Source: Oscillospiraceae bacterium
Lineage (GTDB): Bacteria > Bacillota > Clostridia > Oscillospirales > Oscillospiraceae
Assembly: GCA_021770845.1 (NCBI GenBank)
Contig: JAETQF010000001.1
Location: forward strand, 248,001 to 312,000
Length of the DNA: 64,000 nt
Direction: 5' to 3'
Position numbers and translations under genes: made by a program. Below are positions 13,952-19,973 of the stretch, piece after piece; position 1 is the first letter of the stretch; each line of letters begins with the position of its first letter. The notes under the pieces were generated by a model that was not told the origin of the DNA, did no database searches, and saw nothing but the letters and a program-made list of their open reading frames with translations.

Positions 13952-13973
13952 ACCCGCAGCACAGCGCGGAACG

Positions 13974-14000
13974 GGGCGTCCCATAAGGGACGCCCTTTTT
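13974..14000 (+). terminator. Rho-independent terminator
   Basis: GGGCGTCCC-ataa-GGGACGCCC followed by five T: a textbook hairpin that ends the 11.6-13.95 kb plus-strand transcripts. Confidence 0.9.
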
Positions 14001-14033: not shown

Positions 14034-14062
14034 TTGACAGAACTTCCCGGGGAGATTACAAT
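14034..14062 (+). promoter_or_regulatory. Sigma-A promoter for the M60 metallopeptidase operon
   Basis: TTGACA (14034), 17-base spacer, TACAAT (14057). The leader to the ATG at 14135 is about 65 bases. Confidence 0.8.
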
Positions 14063-14134
14063 AAATTTCCGCATAACTGTTTTGTTTGACATAACAACAG
14101 GAACCACTCTGACAGAACAGAAAGGATGTCACCT

Positions 14135-17100
14135 ATGAAACCTGCGAAGCGATTGATCTCTGGGGCGCTGAGCCTGATCCTGGCCCTCTCCCTGCTGGCC
14201 GGGGGACTGCCCGCCGCCCATGCCGCGCCGGCCTCCGGGCCGCTCACCGGCTCCATTGGCCTTACCCTCCGGTTCGATCTGCCCCAGACCGCCGCCTCCG
14301 CCGCGGGACGGGACATTCAGCTGGAGGTGCGGGGGAGCGGCGGAACCGCCCGGATCTCTCTGCCCGGGGGGACTCCCCTGGAGAACAGCCTGGGCGCCGG
14401 CCTGTCCGTCTCGGTGAAGAACACCGACGGCGTGGAGCTCACCAACGAGACCCGGGTGGGCTATTACGAGGCCCAGCTGTCCGGCCTGCCCGCCGGAGGG
14501 AGCCGCTATGAGCTGACCCTCACCGGCACGGGGTACAAGCCCTTCCGCCAGACCCTCACCCTGGACGGCTACAGCCAGCACGTCATCGTGGGCACCGGCG
14601 ACGCCACCTTCTCCCTGGGAGATGTGAACGGGGACGGCGCGGTGGATGGCGCCGATCTCACCGCCCTGGACGTCCGCCTGGGCAAGACCGCCCAGGCGGG
14701 CCCCTACGACCTCAACGGCGACGGCAAAGTGGACGTGACCGATCTGGCCTACGTCAACCACGCCCGGAACGCCTCCGGCCAGGCCCAGGTGCTGGACGCC
14801 GCCGCCATCGTCGCCCCCCGGGTGGACGTGCCCGCCGGCCTGCTCCAGGGCAACGCGGACGACCTGTTCCGGGACGAGGGCTCCGTCACCATCCTCCCCT
14901 CCAACGGGTCGGCGGAGCTCCCCATCACCCTGGATGACAGCCGCGGCGTGGAGATGAGCCAGATCCGGATCACCTGCCCCGACGGGGCGGGCCAGGGCGG
15001 CGTGGAGGCCGGCACGGTGCTGGCCGAGCTGGCCGACGGCTCCACCCTCACCATTCCCTTTGACGCCGCCGCCCCGGCGGACGTGTACGCCATCGGGGAG
15101 CAGGAGGGCCAGCGGGTCGTCACCATCGACCTGGGCAGCAAGGTGGCGGTGAAAAAGGTCACCATCCAGGTCACCGCCGCCAGCAGCGGGAACGGCTTCG
15201 CCACCGTCACCAAGATCGAGTTCCTCAAGGACATCGTGCCCGACAACCCGGTGAACGACGCCGACCGGGTGAAGGGCCTCGCCGCCACCCCCGGCGACGG
15301 CAGCGTCATCCTGGACTGGAGCGCGGTGCGCAACGTCACCGGCTACACCGTGGCCTACGGCCTCAGCGCCTCCGCCCTCACCCAGACCCTCCCGGTCAAC
15401 ACCAACCGGGCGGTGGTCACCGGGCTGGACAACCTGAAAACCTACTACTTCCAGGTCACCGCCGTCAACGGGGACTGGCAGGGCGCCCCCTCCCGGACGG
15501 TGTCCGCCATGCCCCAGCCCGCCGGAGTGCCCGGGGCCCCCTCCAATATCGGCCTGACCGAGGCGGATCAGTCCCTGCGGCTCACCTGGGGCAAAACCAA
15601 GGACGCGGCCTACTATCAGGTGTTCTACCGCCCCGCGGGGCAGAGCGCCTTCCAGCAGTTCGGCGGCGATATCACGGCCACCTCCGCCACCATCACCGGG
15701 CTGGTGAACGGCACCGCCTATGAGGTAGCGGTGAAGGCGGGCAACGCCCGGGGCACCGGCCCCTACTCCGCCACCGCCCTGGGCACCCCCAAGCAGGAGG
15801 CCCTGGTCATGCCCGATCTGCCCCGGGAGGGCCGGATCGACAACAGCGTGGTGACCTCCGTGGTGATGGAGAACCCCAACAACGTGAACCGCTCCCTGTG
15901 CCCCAACTTCAAGGTTGAGCACGTCATTGACAACGACGCGGCCACCTACTGGGTGGCCAACCAGTGGTGGGTGAGCAGCCGCTTTACCTACACCTTCCGG
16001 GAGCCCCAGGACATGAACTACGCCATCCTGGTGCCCTACCTGGGCGGCAGCCACAAGTACGCCCTCAAGACCTACACCGTCACCGCCTGGAACAGCGCGG
16101 GGGAGCTGCTGCTGGACAACGCCCAGTACAACGCCCGCTCCATGGATCCCAACAAAAACTACCTGGTGCTGACCTTCCCCCTGCTGGAGGACGTGGCCAA
16201 GCTCTCCTTCACCCTCAACGAACGGGAGGGCAACGGCTGCCGGGTGAGCATCTCGGACATGGCCTTCTACAAGAGCGACACCCTGCCCGACGAGATCGCC
16301 TCCCTCTTTGCCGACGGCAGCTTCACCGCCCTGCGGCCGGGGGCCACCGCCGGGGCCATCGCCGCCCTCTCCGCCCGGCTGGACGCCAAGGCCGACTTCT
16401 ACCTGGATCCGGCCCGCCTGCGGGACGAGCTGAGCCTGGCCTCCGCCCTGCTGGCTGGCAACACCTCCGCCCTGGGCCTGATCAAGGGCGATTTCCAGAG
16501 CCGAGGCTCCGCCAAGGACGCCGCCTGCGGCCAGAGCGCCAGCGACCTCCAGCCCCTGGGCGTCACCGCCCGGGCGGGCTCAGTGGTGGCGGTGTACGCC
16601 TCCCTGCCCGGGGACGCGCCGGTGTACGTCACCCCCACCCAGTTCTACGGCGAGTCCGGCATCTGGCGGGGCGCCGCCGTCAAGCTGGAGAACGGCCGCA
16701 ACTACATCTACGTGCCCAAGATCGGCTCCCTCACCGACGAGCGGGGCGGCCCGCTGTACCTGTCCTACGCCGGGGGGAATCCCGGGGCCATCAAGCTCCA
16801 GGTGCGGCTGGATCAGAACAGCTTTGCCATGCCCGTGCTGGAGCTGTCCGGCTGGTACGGCATGGGCGAGGCCGCCCGCCGGGATACCATCCGCGCCTAT
16901 GTCGCCCAGCTCCAGACCTATGTGGCCGCCCTCAAGCTCTCCAAGCCGGGCACCGATATCCGCAACGCCACCGAGATCTCCACCCCCAGCGTGCTGCTGT
17001 CCATCCCCGCCGACCGGGCGCTGGCCGGCCTGTCCGGCATCGGCGCGTCGGTGGACGAGATGACGCAGGCCATGTACCAGAACGTGCTGGCCTGGGAGGA

Positions 17101-18910
17101 CGTGCTGTACGTGGCCAACCAGGTGCAGGGCATCGTGCCCGCCGGCGGGGCCCGGCCGGATTCCTACCGCTACCCCATGAGCACCCGCCAGAATATCCGC
17201 TGCATGAGAATGTTCGCCGGGGCCTTCATGTACGCCGCCGGGAACCACATCGGCATCGGCTACGGCTCCGCCCAGGGCATGGTGTGCGGGCGGCCCGTGT
17301 CCCAGACCGGTGCGGGCAATGCCAACGGCCTGTTCGGCTGGGGCATCGCCCACGAGATCGGCCACAACATGGACAAGCTGGGCCGGGCCGAGATCACCAA
17401 CAACATCTATTCCCTGGCCGTCCAGGCCTGGGACGGCGGCTCCATGGCCCGTCCCACCCGGCTCACCCTCAGCAATATCTGGCCCGCCGTCTATGACAAG
17501 ACCGCCCAGGGCCGCCCCGGCTCCGCCGGAAACGTGTTTGTCCAGCTGGGTATGTACTGGCAGCTCCATCTGGCCTATGACGGCGCCGCCAAGCCGCTGG
17601 ACTTCTACAACCGCTTCTTTACCGCCTGGAAGTCGGGCAGCTGCAGCGGCTATTCCTACGACGAGCGGGTGGCCCTCATCGCCTCCCAGACCGCGGGCCG
17701 GAACCTCACCGAGTTCTTCACCCGCTGGGGCCTGATCCTGGGGGACGGCGCTAAAGCGGAGCTGGCAAAGCTGCCCGCCGAGACCCGGGCCGTCTGGTAT
17801 CTGAACGACGACTCCTATGCCTACCGCCTGCAAAACGGCAGGGCTTTCGGCGGCCGGGTGTCCGCCTCCGCCTCCGTCAGCCAGAACCACGCCACGGTGT
17901 CCATTTCCGGCGGGGACGACACGGTGCTGGGCTACGAGATCCTGCGCAATGGCAGCCCCATCGGCTTCACCACCGGCAGCGCCTATGTGGACGATCTGGG
18001 CGCGGCCAACAACCTGACCTACTCCTACTCCGTCATCCCGGTGGACAGGCTGGGCAACCTGGGGGACACCGTGTCCGCCGGACAGGTGCGGGTGGCCTAC
18101 GACAAGACCGTCTCCCCCAGCCTCTACACCCTGACCCGCAGCGGGACGGACGTGGAGATCACCATGAAGGCCGGGGCCGTCCCCGTCACCGGGCTGAAGG
18201 TCAGCGGCGGCGGTCTGGCGGACTGCACCGTCAGCGCCCTGCTGGACGGCGGCAGCTGGAGCCCGGTGGCCCTGGGCCCGGACAACGGCGGCGTGGCCTA
18301 CTTCGCCAAGCCTGGAGCCCCCGGCGACAGCCGCATCTGGACATACGACGTGTCCGCCCTGCGGATTTCCGGCCTGCCCGCCGGGGCGGAGGTGGAGCTG
18401 CTGGACTACCCCGGCGACCGGGTGGACTTCTACCCCGGGGCGTCGGTGGGCAAGCTGGCCCAGCCTCTGGCCTATGACGGCGGCGTGGTGCCCGCGGGCA
18501 CGGTGGTTGTGGTGGGCACCTACCGGGGCGACCCCGTCTACAACACCCTGGAGATCCAGGCCCGCTACAACACCACCGCCGAGGCCCAGGAGGAGAACGG
18601 CGTCACCAGCGTGGAGCGCGCTATGAACGGCTTCGCCCTGTTCTTCGCCGAGATCCCGGCGGACGGCCAGGTGAGTGACACCAGCGACGGCTTCTGGGTG
18701 TTCGTCCCCGACTGGGAGGCGGAGGAAGCCCTCAACGCCCAGACCGGCGTCACCGCCGACGATCCCACCGAGTTCCGGGCGGTGCTCTACCGCACCGACG
18801 ATCCCTACTCCAGCGCCAGCCGCCGGGTCACCAGCGAGACGCTGTGGGCCAGCTTCCCCCAGACCCATACCCTGCCCCAGCTCGTCCTGACGGGCGAGGG
18901 CGTCCAATAA
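14135..18910 (+). CDS. Secreted multidomain M60-like (enhancin/mucinase) metallopeptidase with a dockerin-like module
   Basis: 1591 residues. A signal peptide (MKPAKRLISGALSLILALSL, cleavage near AHA-AP, ~30) is followed by a dockerin-like module at about 160-215 with two calcium loops, 'GDVNGDGAVDGADLT' and 'DLNGDGKVDVTDL'. Next come two fibronectin III domains (about 375-463, 464-555), an F5/8C-like sugar-binding domain (560-715) and an M60 catalytic domain (about 800-1150). The zinc site 'HEIGHNM' is at ~1073-1079 with a downstream Glu in 'RAEITNN', fitting the HExxH-X(8-28)-E rule. The C-terminus has further Ig/FN3-like modules. M60 enzymes cut O-glycosylated mucin-type proteins. ATG 14135 is preferred to 14126, which would lie against the AAAGG site. 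An SLH protein gene follows 13 bases later. Confidence 0.9.
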   Translation: MKPAKRLISGALSLILALSLLAGGLPAAHAAPASGPLTGSIGLTLRFDLPQTAASAAGRDIQLEVRGSGGTARISLPGGTPLENSLGAGLSVSVKNTDGVELTNETRVGYYEAQLSGLPAGGSRYELTLTGTGYKPFRQTLTLDGYSQHVIVGTGDATFSLGDVNGDGAVDGADLTALDVRLGKTAQAGPYDLNGDGKVDVTDLAYVNHARNASGQAQVLDAAAIVAPRVDVPAGLLQGNADDLFRDEGSVTILPSNGSAELPITLDDSRGVEMSQIRITCPDGAGQGGVEAGTVLAELADGSTLTIPFDAAAPADVYAIGEQEGQRVVTIDLGSKVAVKKVTIQVTAASSGNGFATVTKIEFLKDIVPDNPVNDADRVKGLAATPGDGSVILDWSAVRNVTGYTVAYGLSASALTQTLPVNTNRAVVTGLDNLKTYYFQVTAVNGDWQGAPSRTVSAMPQPAGVPGAPSNIGLTEADQSLRLTWGKTKDAAYYQVFYRPAGQSAFQQFGGDITATSATITGLVNGTAYEVAVKAGNARGTGPYSATALGTPKQEALVMPDLPREGRIDNSVVTSVVMENPNNVNRSLCPNFKVEHVIDNDAATYWVANQWWVSSRFTYTFREPQDMNYAILVPYLGGSHKYALKTYTVTAWNSAGELLLDNAQYNARSMDPNKNYLVLTFPLLEDVAKLSFTLNEREGNGCRVSISDMAFYKSDTLPDEIASLFADGSFTALRPGATAGAIAALSARLDAKADFYLDPARLRDELSLASALLAGNTSALGLIKGDFQSRGSAKDAACGQSASDLQPLGVTARAGSVVAVYASLPGDAPVYVTPTQFYGESGIWRGAAVKLENGRNYIYVPKIGSLTDERGGPLYLSYAGGNPGAIKLQVRLDQNSFAMPVLELSGWYGMGEAARRDTIRAYVAQLQTYVAALKLSKPGTDIRNATEISTPSVLLSIPADRALAGLSGIGASVDEMTQAMYQNVLAWEDVLYVANQVQGIVPAGGARPDSYRYPMSTRQNIRCMRMFAGAFMYAAGNHIGIGYGSAQGMVCGRPVSQTGAGNANGLFGWGIAHEIGHNMDKLGRAEITNNIYSLAVQAWDGGSMARPTRLTLSNIWPAVYDKTAQGRPGSAGNVFVQLGMYWQLHLAYDGAAKPLDFYNRFFTAWKSGSCSGYSYDERVALIASQTAGRNLTEFFTRWGLILGDGAKAELAKLPAETRAVWYLNDDSYAYRLQNGRAFGGRVSASASVSQNHATVSISGGDDTVLGYEILRNGSPIGFTTGSAYVDDLGAANNLTYSYSVIPVDRLGNLGDTVSAGQVRVAYDKTVSPSLYTLTRSGTDVEITMKAGAVPVTGLKVSGGGLADCTVSALLDGGSWSPVALGPDNGGVAYFAKPGAPGDSRIWTYDVSALRISGLPAGAEVELLDYPGDRVDFYPGASVGKLAQPLAYDGGVVPAGTVVVVGTYRGDPVYNTLEIQARYNTTAEAQEENGVTSVERAMNGFALFFAEIPADGQVSDTSDGFWVFVPDWEAEEALNAQTGVTADDPTEFRAVLYRTDDPYSSASRRVTSETLWASFPQTHTLPQLVLTGEGVQ

Positions 18911-18923
18911 AGGAGGGCCAACC

Positions 18924-19934
18924 ATGAAACGCGTTCTTTCCCTGCTGCTGGCCGCGGCGCTGGCCGCCGCCCTGCTCATTGGCCCGGCCTCCGCCGCCTC
19001 TCCCCTCTGGGTGCAGGTGGACGGCCAGGGCACCGCCGGCCAGACCATCACCCTCCGGGGGCTGTCCGGCAGCTTCGACTCCGTGCAGATCACCCTGACC
19101 TTGGACAGGGCCCCCACCGGCTTTCAGTTCGCCCCCGCCCTGTCCGGCAGCGAGACCCACACCGCCCTCACCATCAGCGGGAACAACATCACCCTCTACG
19201 CCACCTCCCGGAACCAGATCAACCAGGGGGACGCCATCCTGCTGGGCGTGCTCACCGCGGACAGCGCCTTCCGGATCACCGCCGCCACCGGCGTGAAGCT
19301 GCTGGATCTGGAGGCGGGGAGCGGCCGGGAGCTGTCCTACGCCACGGTGGGCGTGGGCTCCCCCGCCGTGTCCATGCCCTTCACCGACGTGCCCGAGAAT
19401 CAGTGGTATCACGACGCGGTGGCCTACGTCTACGCCGCCCAGCTGATGAACGGCACCGGCGGCACCCTGTTTGAGCCCGACAAAACCACCACCCGGGGTA
19501 TGATCGTCACCATCCTCTGGCGGCTGGAGGGGGAGCCGGTAGTGAACTACCTGATGCCCTTCACCGACGTGCCCGCCAGCTGGTACACCGAGGCCGTCCG
19601 CTGGGCCTCGTCGGAGCGCATCGTCAACGGCTACACCGACGGGACGTTCCGGCCCGAGGCCGCCATCACCCGGGAGCAGCTGGCCACCATCCTGTTCAAC
19701 TACGCCAAGTACAAGGGCTACGACGTGAGCGGCAGGGCCAACCTGTCCGCCCTGTTCCCCGACGCGGGCAGGGTCAGCGGGTACGCCGCCGACGCCCTGT
19801 CCTGGGCCAACCAGGCCAAGCTCATCAACGGCGTGGCCGACGGCGGCGCCACCTTCCTCCAGCCCCAGGGCTCCGCCATCCGGGCCCAGGTGGCCGCCAT
19901 CCTTATGCGCTTCCAAGAGAACATCGCGAAATAG
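18924..19934 (+). CDS. SLH surface protein with cohesin-like N-terminal domain
   Basis: 336 residues with signal peptide (cleavage near ASA-AS, ~25). Residues ~26-145 form a beta-rich domain with cohesin-like features: 'TAGQTITLRGLSG', 'SVQITLTLDRAPTGFQF', 'QGDAILLGVLTADSAFRI'. Three S-layer homology repeats follow (about 150-205, 210-270, 275-336), with 'FTDVP..QWYHDAVAYVYAA' and 'FTDVPASWYTEAVRWASS' signatures, which anchor proteins to pyruvylated wall polymers. Gene order and 13-base spacing put it in one operon with the dockerin-bearing M60 protease, so it may be the surface receptor for it. SLH is certain; cohesin is a reading of pattern and context. Confidence 0.88.
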   Translation: MKRVLSLLLAAALAAALLIGPASAASPLWVQVDGQGTAGQTITLRGLSGSFDSVQITLTLDRAPTGFQFAPALSGSETHTALTISGNNITLYATSRNQINQGDAILLGVLTADSAFRITAATGVKLLDLEAGSGRELSYATVGVGSPAVSMPFTDVPENQWYHDAVAYVYAAQLMNGTGGTLFEPDKTTTRGMIVTILWRLEGEPVVNYLMPFTDVPASWYTEAVRWASSERIVNGYTDGTFRPEAAITREQLATILFNYAKYKGYDVSGRANLSALFPDAGRVSGYAADALSWANQAKLINGVADGGATFLQPQGSAIRAQVAAILMRFQENIAK

Positions 19935-19942
19935 CAGCACAA

Positions 19943-19973
19943 ACCCCCGGGACGAGGCTCGTCCCGGGGGGTT
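19943..19973. terminator. Bidirectional terminator between the convergent SLH and M3 peptidase genes
   Basis: CCCCCGGGACGAG and CTCGTCCCGGGGG face each other around one base, followed by T-rich sequence on the plus strand (GTTCTTCTTTG). It lies between two convergent stop codons. Confidence 0.85.

Follow-up and report, generated by a model that had tools for sequence, protein, structure and literature searches.

An M60 peptidase with an X-dockerin module and its SLH-anchored partner: a candidate one-enzyme surface dock in gut Clostridia

In the 64,000 nucleotides of Oscillospiraceae DNA analysed here (the window), the gene of an M60 metallopeptidase carrying an internal dockerin is followed by the gene of a short protein that joins a cohesin-like domain to three SLH repeats. 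Among relatives the two genes form a near-obligate pair. We consider it quite likely that they are a dedicated enzyme-plus-dock operon, i.e. a minimal cohesin-dockerin surface dock serving a single enzyme. In many gut Clostridia it probably attaches a single protease to the cell surface as a cellulosome would be attached, though no cellulosome is present.

The mechanism that we propose is simple. The M60 peptidase would be secreted without a wall anchor and carry its X-dockerin dyad internally, while the second protein, also secreted, would be bound to the wall by its SLH repeats and display one small cohesin-like domain. The dockerin, to which calcium and the X-module would lend stability, would bind this domain, mainly by setting its second loop-helix against a conserved face formed by strands 3 and 6. 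One M60 enzyme would be held per anchor at the cell surface, where it may trim O-glycoproteins, e.g. host mucins.

The two genes and the X-dockerin module of the protease

The M60 gene (gene 1) is an open frame that runs from 14126 or 14135 to 18910 and codes for 1594 or 1591 aa depending on the start chosen. The SLH gene (gene 2) begins 13 bases beyond it, spans 18924-19934 and codes for 336 aa. The earlier note on this DNA had described two such genes at this spacing, and both frames lie where it had put them. The features of the locus are as follows:

13973-13996, + strand: terminator-like hairpin of 10 pairs, upstream of the gene pair
14034-14062, + strand: sigma-70-like promoter TTGACA-17-TACAAT, 5' of the M60 gene (11/12 consensus matches)
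14135-18910, + strand: gene 1, secreted M60 metallopeptidase with X-dockerin module (open frames, Pfam, alignment; in-frame ATG also at 14126)
14135-14227, + strand: signal peptide of the M60 protein, end approximate (read from the sequence)
14246-14593, + strand: X-module-like beta domain immediately 5' of the dockerin, limits approximate (model pLDDT 96, Foldseek)
14615-14761, + strand: two-loop dockerin, Dockerin_1, residues 164-212 (Pfam, alignment, model)
15278-15775, + strand: fibronectin type III domains in two stretches, start approximate (Pfam)
17204-17731, + strand: Peptidase_M60 match, with the HEIGH motif at 17351-17365 (Pfam, alignment)
18911-18923, + strand: intergenic gap of 13 bases, AGGAGGGCCAACC, containing a ribosome-binding site
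18924-19934, + strand: gene 2, anchor protein with signal peptide, cohesin-like domain and three SLH repeats (open frames, Pfam)
18999-19355, + strand: cohesin-like nine-strand beta domain, residues 26-144 (fold and conserved face, without a sequence-level match)
19371-19931, + strand: three SLH repeats, cell-wall anchor, limits approximate (Pfam)
19944-19970, + strand: terminator-like hairpin of 12 pairs, 3' of gene 2

Terminator-like sites in the region number 7 against 3.2 expected and promoter-like sites 2 against 0.3 expected. Judging from the sequence, the M60 and SLH genes may well be co-transcribed.

The Peptidase_M60 profile (PF13402) matches the gene 1 protein with 65.1 bits (cut-off 25.8, E 1e-17), and the HExxH motif and its downstream Glu are conserved in 79/79 aligned M60 proteins (the window plus 78 loci; L059 and L099, cut or split, were omitted). 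An F5/8 (CBM32-like) match in the same protein is weak and under the Pfam cut-off. By analogy with the characterised M60 peptidases, the enzyme may cleave O-glycoproteins or mucins. The Pfam scan of this protein found neither SLH nor any other wall-anchor family, in agreement with the view that the protease has no wall anchor of its own.

A two-loop dockerin had been placed near residues 160-215 of the protease, and Dockerin_1 indeed matches residues 164-212 with 34.3 bits (cut-off 22.9). The two loops are of the calcium-binding DxNxDG type. Residues 36-228 as modelled by AlphaFold2 (pLDDT 96.1) have a helix after each loop, so that the helix pairing of a dockerin is borne out, and the Foldseek top ten PDB matches of the model all come from type II X-dockerins (chains from eight entries; E 3e-7 to 4e-6, TM on the query 0.48-0.55; the next match is at E 3e-3). 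The sequence profile aligns to 5k39_B across both X-module and dockerin, and the C. perfringens FIVAR-dockerin (2jnk/2ozn) is among its matches. As modelled, the dockerin is thus part of a larger X-dockerin module. This fold has a known role in binding cohesins, and by analogy the gene 1 dockerin would bind a cohesin with calcium. Dockerin_1 is present in 74/76 members at E 0.01; the first loop is atypical in some relatives, and two partnered proteins of genus g95 score weakly, at 15.3 and 21.1 bits. From the X-dockerin alignment (A2), L059 was omitted as cut, L076 as a duplicate and L088 and L094 for their length; L093, with a long insert, was taken out by hand from 77 listed rows.

The beta domain of the anchor protein

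SLH is the sole Pfam family in the gene 2 protein (three stretches, E 1.4e-33, 115 bits). The domain that precedes it had been called cohesin-like, a description with some backing from the predicted fold but none from the sequence. Modelled by AlphaFold2 (119 aa, pLDDT 95.4), the domain is a nine-strand sandwich whose first four Foldseek matches are cohesins, the C. perfringens cohesin 2jh2 being the best. Neither of two outcomes that the earlier note would have taken as refutation, another fold for this domain or calcium loops without paired helices, was seen in the models. The TM-scores are modest overall (0.40-0.58), and among the 50 matches listed the highest belong to cohesins (0.55-0.58 vs 0.51 for the best non-cohesin). 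A single match falls below E 0.001, and the cohesins are mixed in the list with CBM2 and YcnI folds. A search with PF00963, which had been proposed as a check, gave no match to the domain, and neither did any other Pfam family. Its profile has zero matches among PDB sequences at E 10, a Pfam scan of 75 members at E 1 gives no family in more than two of them, and alignment of its profile to that of 27 true cohesins from this bacterial family yields an hhalign probability of 0.5%, no better than ten control regions. It is a modest match of predicted folds that suggests membership among the cohesins. The partner alignment (A1) omits L048, L061 and L099 (cut, split or long), L071 (without partner sequence), L091 (duplicate) and L108 (ambiguous residues).

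Cohesins bind dockerins with the face formed by sheet 8-3-6-5. Strands 3 and 6 of the partner domain lie in this sheet, and their exposed positions are conserved at 2.31 and 2.40 bits, against 0.64-0.99 for strands 1, 2, 4 and 9. Covariation across 75 protein pairs, the rows common to A1 and A2 (effective number 43), shows no dockerin-specific coupling to the partner domain. Column pairs above z 4 with the domain amount to 0.23% for the dockerin, vs 0.74-0.76% for the X, middle and catalytic parts and 0.51% for the C-terminal part. The strongest pairs are spread along the entire M60 protein, a pattern suggestive of shared ancestry.

Recurrence of the pair and exchange of anchors

The partner domain lies downstream of the M60 gene in 79/80 loci (the best 80 of 147 found), a count that is partly circular because A1 was built from the same loci. 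The single miss, L071, is a contig that stops 58 bases past the M60 gene. SLH is found downstream in 78/80, both misses being at contig ends. Cultured relatives that possess the pair include Flavonifractor sp. An92, Pseudoflavonifractor phocaeensis An569 and Anaerotignum lactatifermentans DSM 14214. A survey of 300 genomes of the family, less circular, detects the domain in 35, with one copy per genome, and in all 35 the domain-bearing contig also has an M60 match. The survey of relatives, which the earlier note had asked for, thus speaks for a dedicated pair. SLH proteins are everywhere, since the whole second protein is matched in 344/400 genomes, mostly through its SLH part, and their abundance might suggest adjacency by chance. 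Yet the recurrence across the related loci makes chance unlikely and, with the association between domain and M60 contig, leads us to reject it.

Relatives also differ in how the pair is anchored. In G202, G216 and G294 the partner retains the domain and a TGD-transmembrane-basic (sortase-like) tail replaces SLH. In four genomes of genus g77 the SLH repeats are fused onto the M60 protein itself and the partner domain is not detected in the genome; one of these, G152, has a true cohesin elsewhere. The four fused proteins keep a dockerin-like stretch that scores 9.3-16.0 bits, under the cut-off in 4/4, and 4/4 have lost the conserved helix-3 Tyr and Asn, a contrast that is not clean because the three proteins with a sortase-like partner keep the Tyr in one only and the Asn in none. 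Since the stretch persists in these partner-less proteins, it may have a role of its own.

The genome of the window (82% complete) has one Dockerin_1 match, the gene 1 dockerin, and no PF00963 cohesin was found in it at E 0.001; nor did the scaffoldin with several cohesins and the several dockerin enzymes of a cellulosome or mucinolysome turn up there. Among the 35 domain-bearing genomes, 30 have a Dockerin_1 match and 24 have exactly one. PF00963 was not found at E 0.001 in 31/36 genomes with the pair or its M60-X-dockerin (own genome uncounted), and for this reason a dockerin serving an unseen scaffoldin is rejected for most genomes. Dockerins without the partner domain are common in the family (103/265 genomes lacking the domain), and 12 hand-picked dockerin-rich genomes of it have 2-6 Pfam cohesin matches each (12/12).

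One might speculate that the beta domain binds carbohydrates or other ligands, as a CBM2-like sandwich, with the two proteins lying side by side without contact and the dockerin binding elsewhere, e.g. to the cohesin of another cell. CBM2 and other beta-sandwiches do appear at similar Foldseek E-values, and the domain lacks a sequence link to cohesins. But this is at odds with the domain never being detected without an M60 match in the 300 genomes, with its constancy while the anchor type changes, with the cohesins' highest TM-scores among the matches listed, and with the scarcity of PF00963 matches in the genomes concerned (none in 31/36). We hold it to be unlikely.

Taking the dockerin for a structural, calcium-stabilised hinge of the M60 protein, with the SLH partner bound to the X-module or the C-terminal domain, would fit both the stretch kept by SLH-fused proteins and a covariation signal that fails to single out the dockerin. 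However, that stretch is under the cut-off and without its Tyr and Asn in every fused protein (the latter contrast being blurred by the proteins with sortase-like partners), and the fold is one known to bind cohesins, which makes a mere hinge quite improbable. That the pair is left over from, or a satellite of, a larger assembly of cohesins and dockerins (cellulosome or mucinolysome) is suggested by the Pfam cohesins and many dockerins of other family genomes. Yet the genome of the window has one dockerin and zero Pfam cohesins, and most genomes with the pair likewise have exactly one dockerin (24/35) and no Pfam cohesin (31/36); we give this origin very little credit. Docking of the protease on its neighbour is the explanation that we prefer.

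Comparison with known docking systems

In C. thermocellum, SdbA-type anchors combine a cohesin with SLH. Type II cellulosome anchoring, in which they face the X-Doc of CipA, has the same split as the present pair, X-module-dockerin on one side and cohesin-like domain with SLH on the other. As modelled, the fold match to this system is strong on the X-dockerin side and weak on the cohesin side. Here, in contrast, the dyad is internal in an enzyme rather than at the end of a scaffoldin, the genome usually has no other dockerin and no Pfam cohesin, and the receptor domain is smaller (119 aa modelled) than a type II cohesin and escapes PF00963.

Anchoring scaffoldins that carry dockerin peptidases are already on record, and the present pair adds a variant. 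The earlier note had thought the idea new, but its novelty is smaller than supposed: the excerpts available of three papers include an X-dockerin peptidase on a cohesin that anchors it at the surface, as well as mucin degraders with dockerins (PMC5590126, PMC12484212, PMC12997984). In two of these excerpts, an R. flavefaciens cysteine peptidase with X-dockerin is on ScaE and the double dockerin of a C. thermocellum S8 protease prefers ScaD (PMC5590126, PMC12484212). Both are likewise dockerin proteases for which attachment to an anchoring cohesin is described or proposed; they differ in coming from cellulosome producers and in belonging to other peptidase families, and the same excerpts describe no dedicated two-gene operon (PMC5590126, PMC12484212).

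The cohesin (X82) and FIVAR-dockerin glycoside hydrolases of C. perfringens also make non-cellulosomal pairwise contacts among host-glycan enzymes. Their cohesin is carried by GH-domain proteins, according to an excerpt of PMC12997984, whereas here it would be on a separate wall anchor. The Limousia mucinolysome, as excerpted from the same paper, resembles our pair in its dockerin-bearing mucin enzymes and peptidases and its wall-anchored cohesin protein, but it has many enzymes and multi-cohesin scaffoldins, and it was found by Pfam cohesin and dockerin models (PMC12997984). A Pfam cohesin search like the one used for Limousia would, from its sequence, be expected to miss the gene 2 domain.

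Gene 1 shares HExxH plus Glu, FN3 domains and a weak F5/8 match with the M60-like/PF13402 gluzincins (O-glycopeptidases). In the part of PMC3267712 available, 2 of 415 M60 proteins are listed with a dockerin and 1 with SLH, and the architecture figure labels those of Clostridium and Bacillus as lacking an evident anchor. If docking is real, it would explain how, in this lineage, the cell retains M60 peptidases that have no evident anchor, and such retention matters for the question of which commensals cleave host glycoproteins at their own surface. It would also reveal docking stripped down to one operon with one enzyme and one receptor, in gut Clostridia that have no cellulosomes. Such systems would be under-counted because the standard cohesin profile misses the receptor. 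The pair is small and natural, and is therefore a candidate plug-and-socket for surface display. With some reserve, we lean towards a wider view, in which a new cohesin family outside the Pfam cohesin model serves solely as private receptor for a single X-dockerin protease. In that case docking would be a general and interchangeable means by which gut Clostridia fix single enzymes to their surface, and not a speciality of cellulosome producers; an SLH anchor, a sortase-type anchor and SLH fused directly to the enzyme would be alternatives arrived at in evolution.

The gene pair and its conservation

The + strand carries two tandem open frames, one for an M60 metallopeptidase and one for its putative SLH anchor protein:

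13973-13996, upstream hairpin
14034-14062, promoter-like site, 11/12 consensus matches
14126 or 14135 (in-frame ATGs) to stop 18910, +, gene 1, secreted M60 protein of ~1590 residues
residues 164-212 of the gene 1 product, Dockerin_1 (Pfam), 34.3 bits (cut-off 22.9)
18924-19934, +, gene 2, SLH protein of 336 aa
19944-19970, downstream hairpin, 12 pairs

The gene 1 product also matches Peptidase_M60 (E 1e-17) and FN3 repeats in Pfam, and SLH repeats are the sole Pfam matches of the gene 2 product. Gene 2 starts 13 bases past gene 1, preceded by an AGGAGG site. Both genes are likely to form one transcription unit, bracketed by the promoter-like site and the hairpins, as judged from consensus matches; promoter-like sites number 2 against 0.3 expected and terminator-like sites 7 against 3.2.

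One scan of the species-genome collection gave 147 relatives of the M60 protein, of which we kept the best 80; the names of their records include Oscillospiraceae, Flavonifractor, Oscillibacter, Butyricicoccus, Acutalibacter, Lachnospiraceae and Anaerotignum (order Lachnospirales). Among these best 80 of 147, the N-terminal domain of the SLH protein (the partner domain) is encoded downstream of the M60 gene in 79 loci and SLH in 78. The sole locus without the domain, L071, ends 58 bases past the M60 gene, and both SLH misses (L048, L071) are contig ends. The intergenic gap is -8 to 59 bases in 77 loci (L061 and L099 were left out as broken genes), a length that depends on the start codons chosen for each locus. 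The SLH profile matches none of the 80 M60 proteins, and the catalytic HExxH and Glu are intact in 79/79 aligned homologues, the window counted in. The gene pair is real and conserved, and the association of M60-X-dockerin with domain-SLH is near-obligate.

In some copies one gene is split between two frames or lacks half its length, through either decay or assembly error: L061:7001-13738 (partner domain and SLH in two frames), L099:6974-14532, L143 (genome G118) and G091:C20. Between the partner domain and SLH, six of nine partner proteins scanned match the InlB-B-repeat-like PF18998, four over cut-off (e.g. L037:11800-13134, L041:11876-13237, L046:7164-8453); Pfam finds no such match in the window's shorter SLH protein.

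The X-dockerin and the cohesin-like domain

The earlier note had proposed a two-loop dockerin-like module in the M60 protein, and both the Dockerin_1 match and the predicted structure bear this out. Residues 36-228, modelled with AlphaFold2 from an alignment of 76 sequences (pLDDT 96.1), form a beta domain and, after it, two loop-helix units, in which the calcium loops are paired with helices. In Foldseek comparisons with the PDB, the top ten matches are chains from eight type II X-dockerin entries, mostly of C. thermocellum proteins. E-values run from 3e-7 to 4e-6 and TM-scores on the query from 0.48 to 0.55, with the next match only at 3e-3. The entries are classed from their titles, except for 3kcp and 4fl4, which we take to hold type II X-dockerins. 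An HMM search of PDB sequences with the profile of this region put dockerin constructs on top, some of them presumed to be such, and calmodulins lower; the alignment of 5k39_B spans X-module and dockerin. Dockerin_1 matches 74 of the 76 members scanned (Pfam, E 0.01). The module can be recognised across the window and 79 aligned loci; first loops are sometimes atypical, and the region is missing from L059. Conservation is stronger in the second loop and helix (mean 2.75 bits vs 2.12 for the first), which would suit binding mainly via helix 3. By each test made, binding excepted, the M60 plug is, as modelled, a dockerin.

The companion proposal, that the partner domain is cohesin-like, is favoured by fold and finds no echo in sequence methods, which gave no link between this domain and cohesins; its profile-profile similarity to true cohesins did not rise above that to control regions. 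The model from its 75-row alignment has nine strands (pLDDT 95.4), and Foldseek matches 1-4 are cohesins (three C. perfringens 2jh2 chains, then Archaeoglobus 2xdh). Judged by titles, cohesins make up ~23 of the 50 matches listed, SdbA type II cohesin included, interleaved with CBM2 and YcnI folds. TM-scores on the query are modest at 0.40-0.58, and a single match falls under E 0.001. Cohesins bind dockerins through the sheet 8-3-6-5. Exposed positions of the partner domain average 2.31 and 2.40 bits in strands 3 and 6, where Gln30, Thr32, Thr65 and Tyr67 stand out, 1.17, 1.45 and 1.73 bits in strands 5, 8 and 7, and 0.64-0.99 bits in strands 1, 2, 4 and 9, exposure being assigned from hydrophobic alternation without coordinates, with weak contrast for strands 7, 8 and 9. 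Conservation of strands 3 and 6 hints, as an independent pointer, at a cohesin-like binding face. The modelled socket would be a cohesin by fold only. Inter-protein covariation over 75 pairs (effective number 43) showed no excess for dockerin columns, which scored below the X, middle, catalytic and C-terminal columns.

Family distribution and changes of anchor

In a survey of 300 family genomes, the partner domain was detected in 35, in single copy (counting weak partial matches in G216 and G294, E 1.6e-5), Dockerin_1 in 133 and M60 in 43, 42 above cut-off. Domain and M60 share a contig in 35/35. Thirty of these genomes have a Dockerin_1 match, 24 exactly one. Among those without, the M60 is cut at a contig edge in G050 and G282, only its C-terminal half is recognised in G118 (partner in two frames), G294 has a dockerin at 15.3 bits, and G071 matches the X-dockerin profile at 8.5e-66. 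A dockerin alone does not predict the domain, since 103 of the 265 domain-less genomes have one; nor do SLH proteins as such mark the pair, since at E 1e-10 the whole second protein finds matches in 344 of 400 genomes, chiefly via its SLH part. Eight M60 genomes fall outside the 35, four of them with the SLH-fused M60 described below. In G202 only the local profile picked up the partner (E 5e-5), in G180 the M60 locus runs to the contig edge, in G073 the M60 match is under cut-off, and G156 has a distant M60 without X-dockerin. This protein (L154:4014-10307, ~2100 residues), which also lacks the partner domain, is of a different M60 lineage.

The Pfam cohesin model PF00963 has no match at E 0.001 in 31 of the 36 genomes that carry the pair or its M60-X-dockerin, not counting the own genome; five match weakly (G070, G143, G147, G202, G214; E 1e-5 to 2e-4). 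True Pfam cohesins with several to many dockerins occur in other family genomes (G012, G131, G179, G171; loci within L156-L185), and real multi-enzyme complexes may therefore exist nearby in the family.

A docking function predicts the either-or pattern seen here, partner domain or SLH fused to the M60 protein. Four genomes of one genus (G077, G152, G207, G288) carry three SLH repeats on the M60 protein itself, and the partner domain was not detected in them. Their M60 dockerins score 9.3-16.0 bits, under cut-off, with the conserved helix-3 Tyr and Asn replaced in all four. Fusions of this kind provide the docking model with a natural control. One of the four, G152, has a clear cohesin elsewhere (PF00963, E 5e-11). 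The C-terminal fusions lie at L147:29-6769, L148:2157-8660 (-), L149:1963-8478 (-) and L151:2049-8627.

In G216, G294 and G202 the downstream protein retains the partner domain without SLH and ends in a proline-rich stretch, TGD motif, hydrophobic segment and basic tail; this looks like a sortase signal, and a Pfam scan called no sortase-type signal there. The swap is seen in genus g95 and in a single genome from the genus of the window (SLH-less partners with TGD-type tails: L145:8159-9163, L146:3075-3983 (-), L150:9123-9989). The either-or contrast is not clean, because two partnered g95 dockerins are also weak (15.3 and 21.1 bits) and, where the partner is sortase-like, the Tyr is kept in one of three M60 proteins and the Asn in none.

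The docking model and known systems

The gene pair is very probably a minimal protease dock. The wall-bound partner would show one cohesin-like socket, into which the X-dockerin of the neighbouring gene's peptidase would fit, and this contact would fix the enzyme to the cell surface; such socket-and-plug fixation is the most likely reading. By analogy with characterised M60 O-glycopeptidases, we infer that the substrate may be an O-glycoprotein. That it is host gut mucin would be a guess, drawn from the gut-dwelling kinds in record titles.

Among the matches listed from open-licence papers, no title or abstract describes an M60-dockerin/SLH-anchor pair, a weak absence. A 2012 study counted two M60 proteins with dockerin and one with SLH among 415, and its architecture figure marks Clostridium and Bacillus members as without evident anchor (PMC3267712). 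From Pfam cohesin and dockerin models, a 2026 paper proposed a multi-enzyme mucinolysome that includes peptidases with dockerins (PMC12997984). Docked peptidases have also been described in cellulosome producers: in R. flavefaciens a cysteine peptidase X-dockerin is placed on the anchoring cohesin of ScaE, and in C. thermocellum an S8 double dockerin prefers ScaD (PMC5590126, PMC12484212). In the proposed mechanism, the M60 pair would work like a cellulosome anchor.
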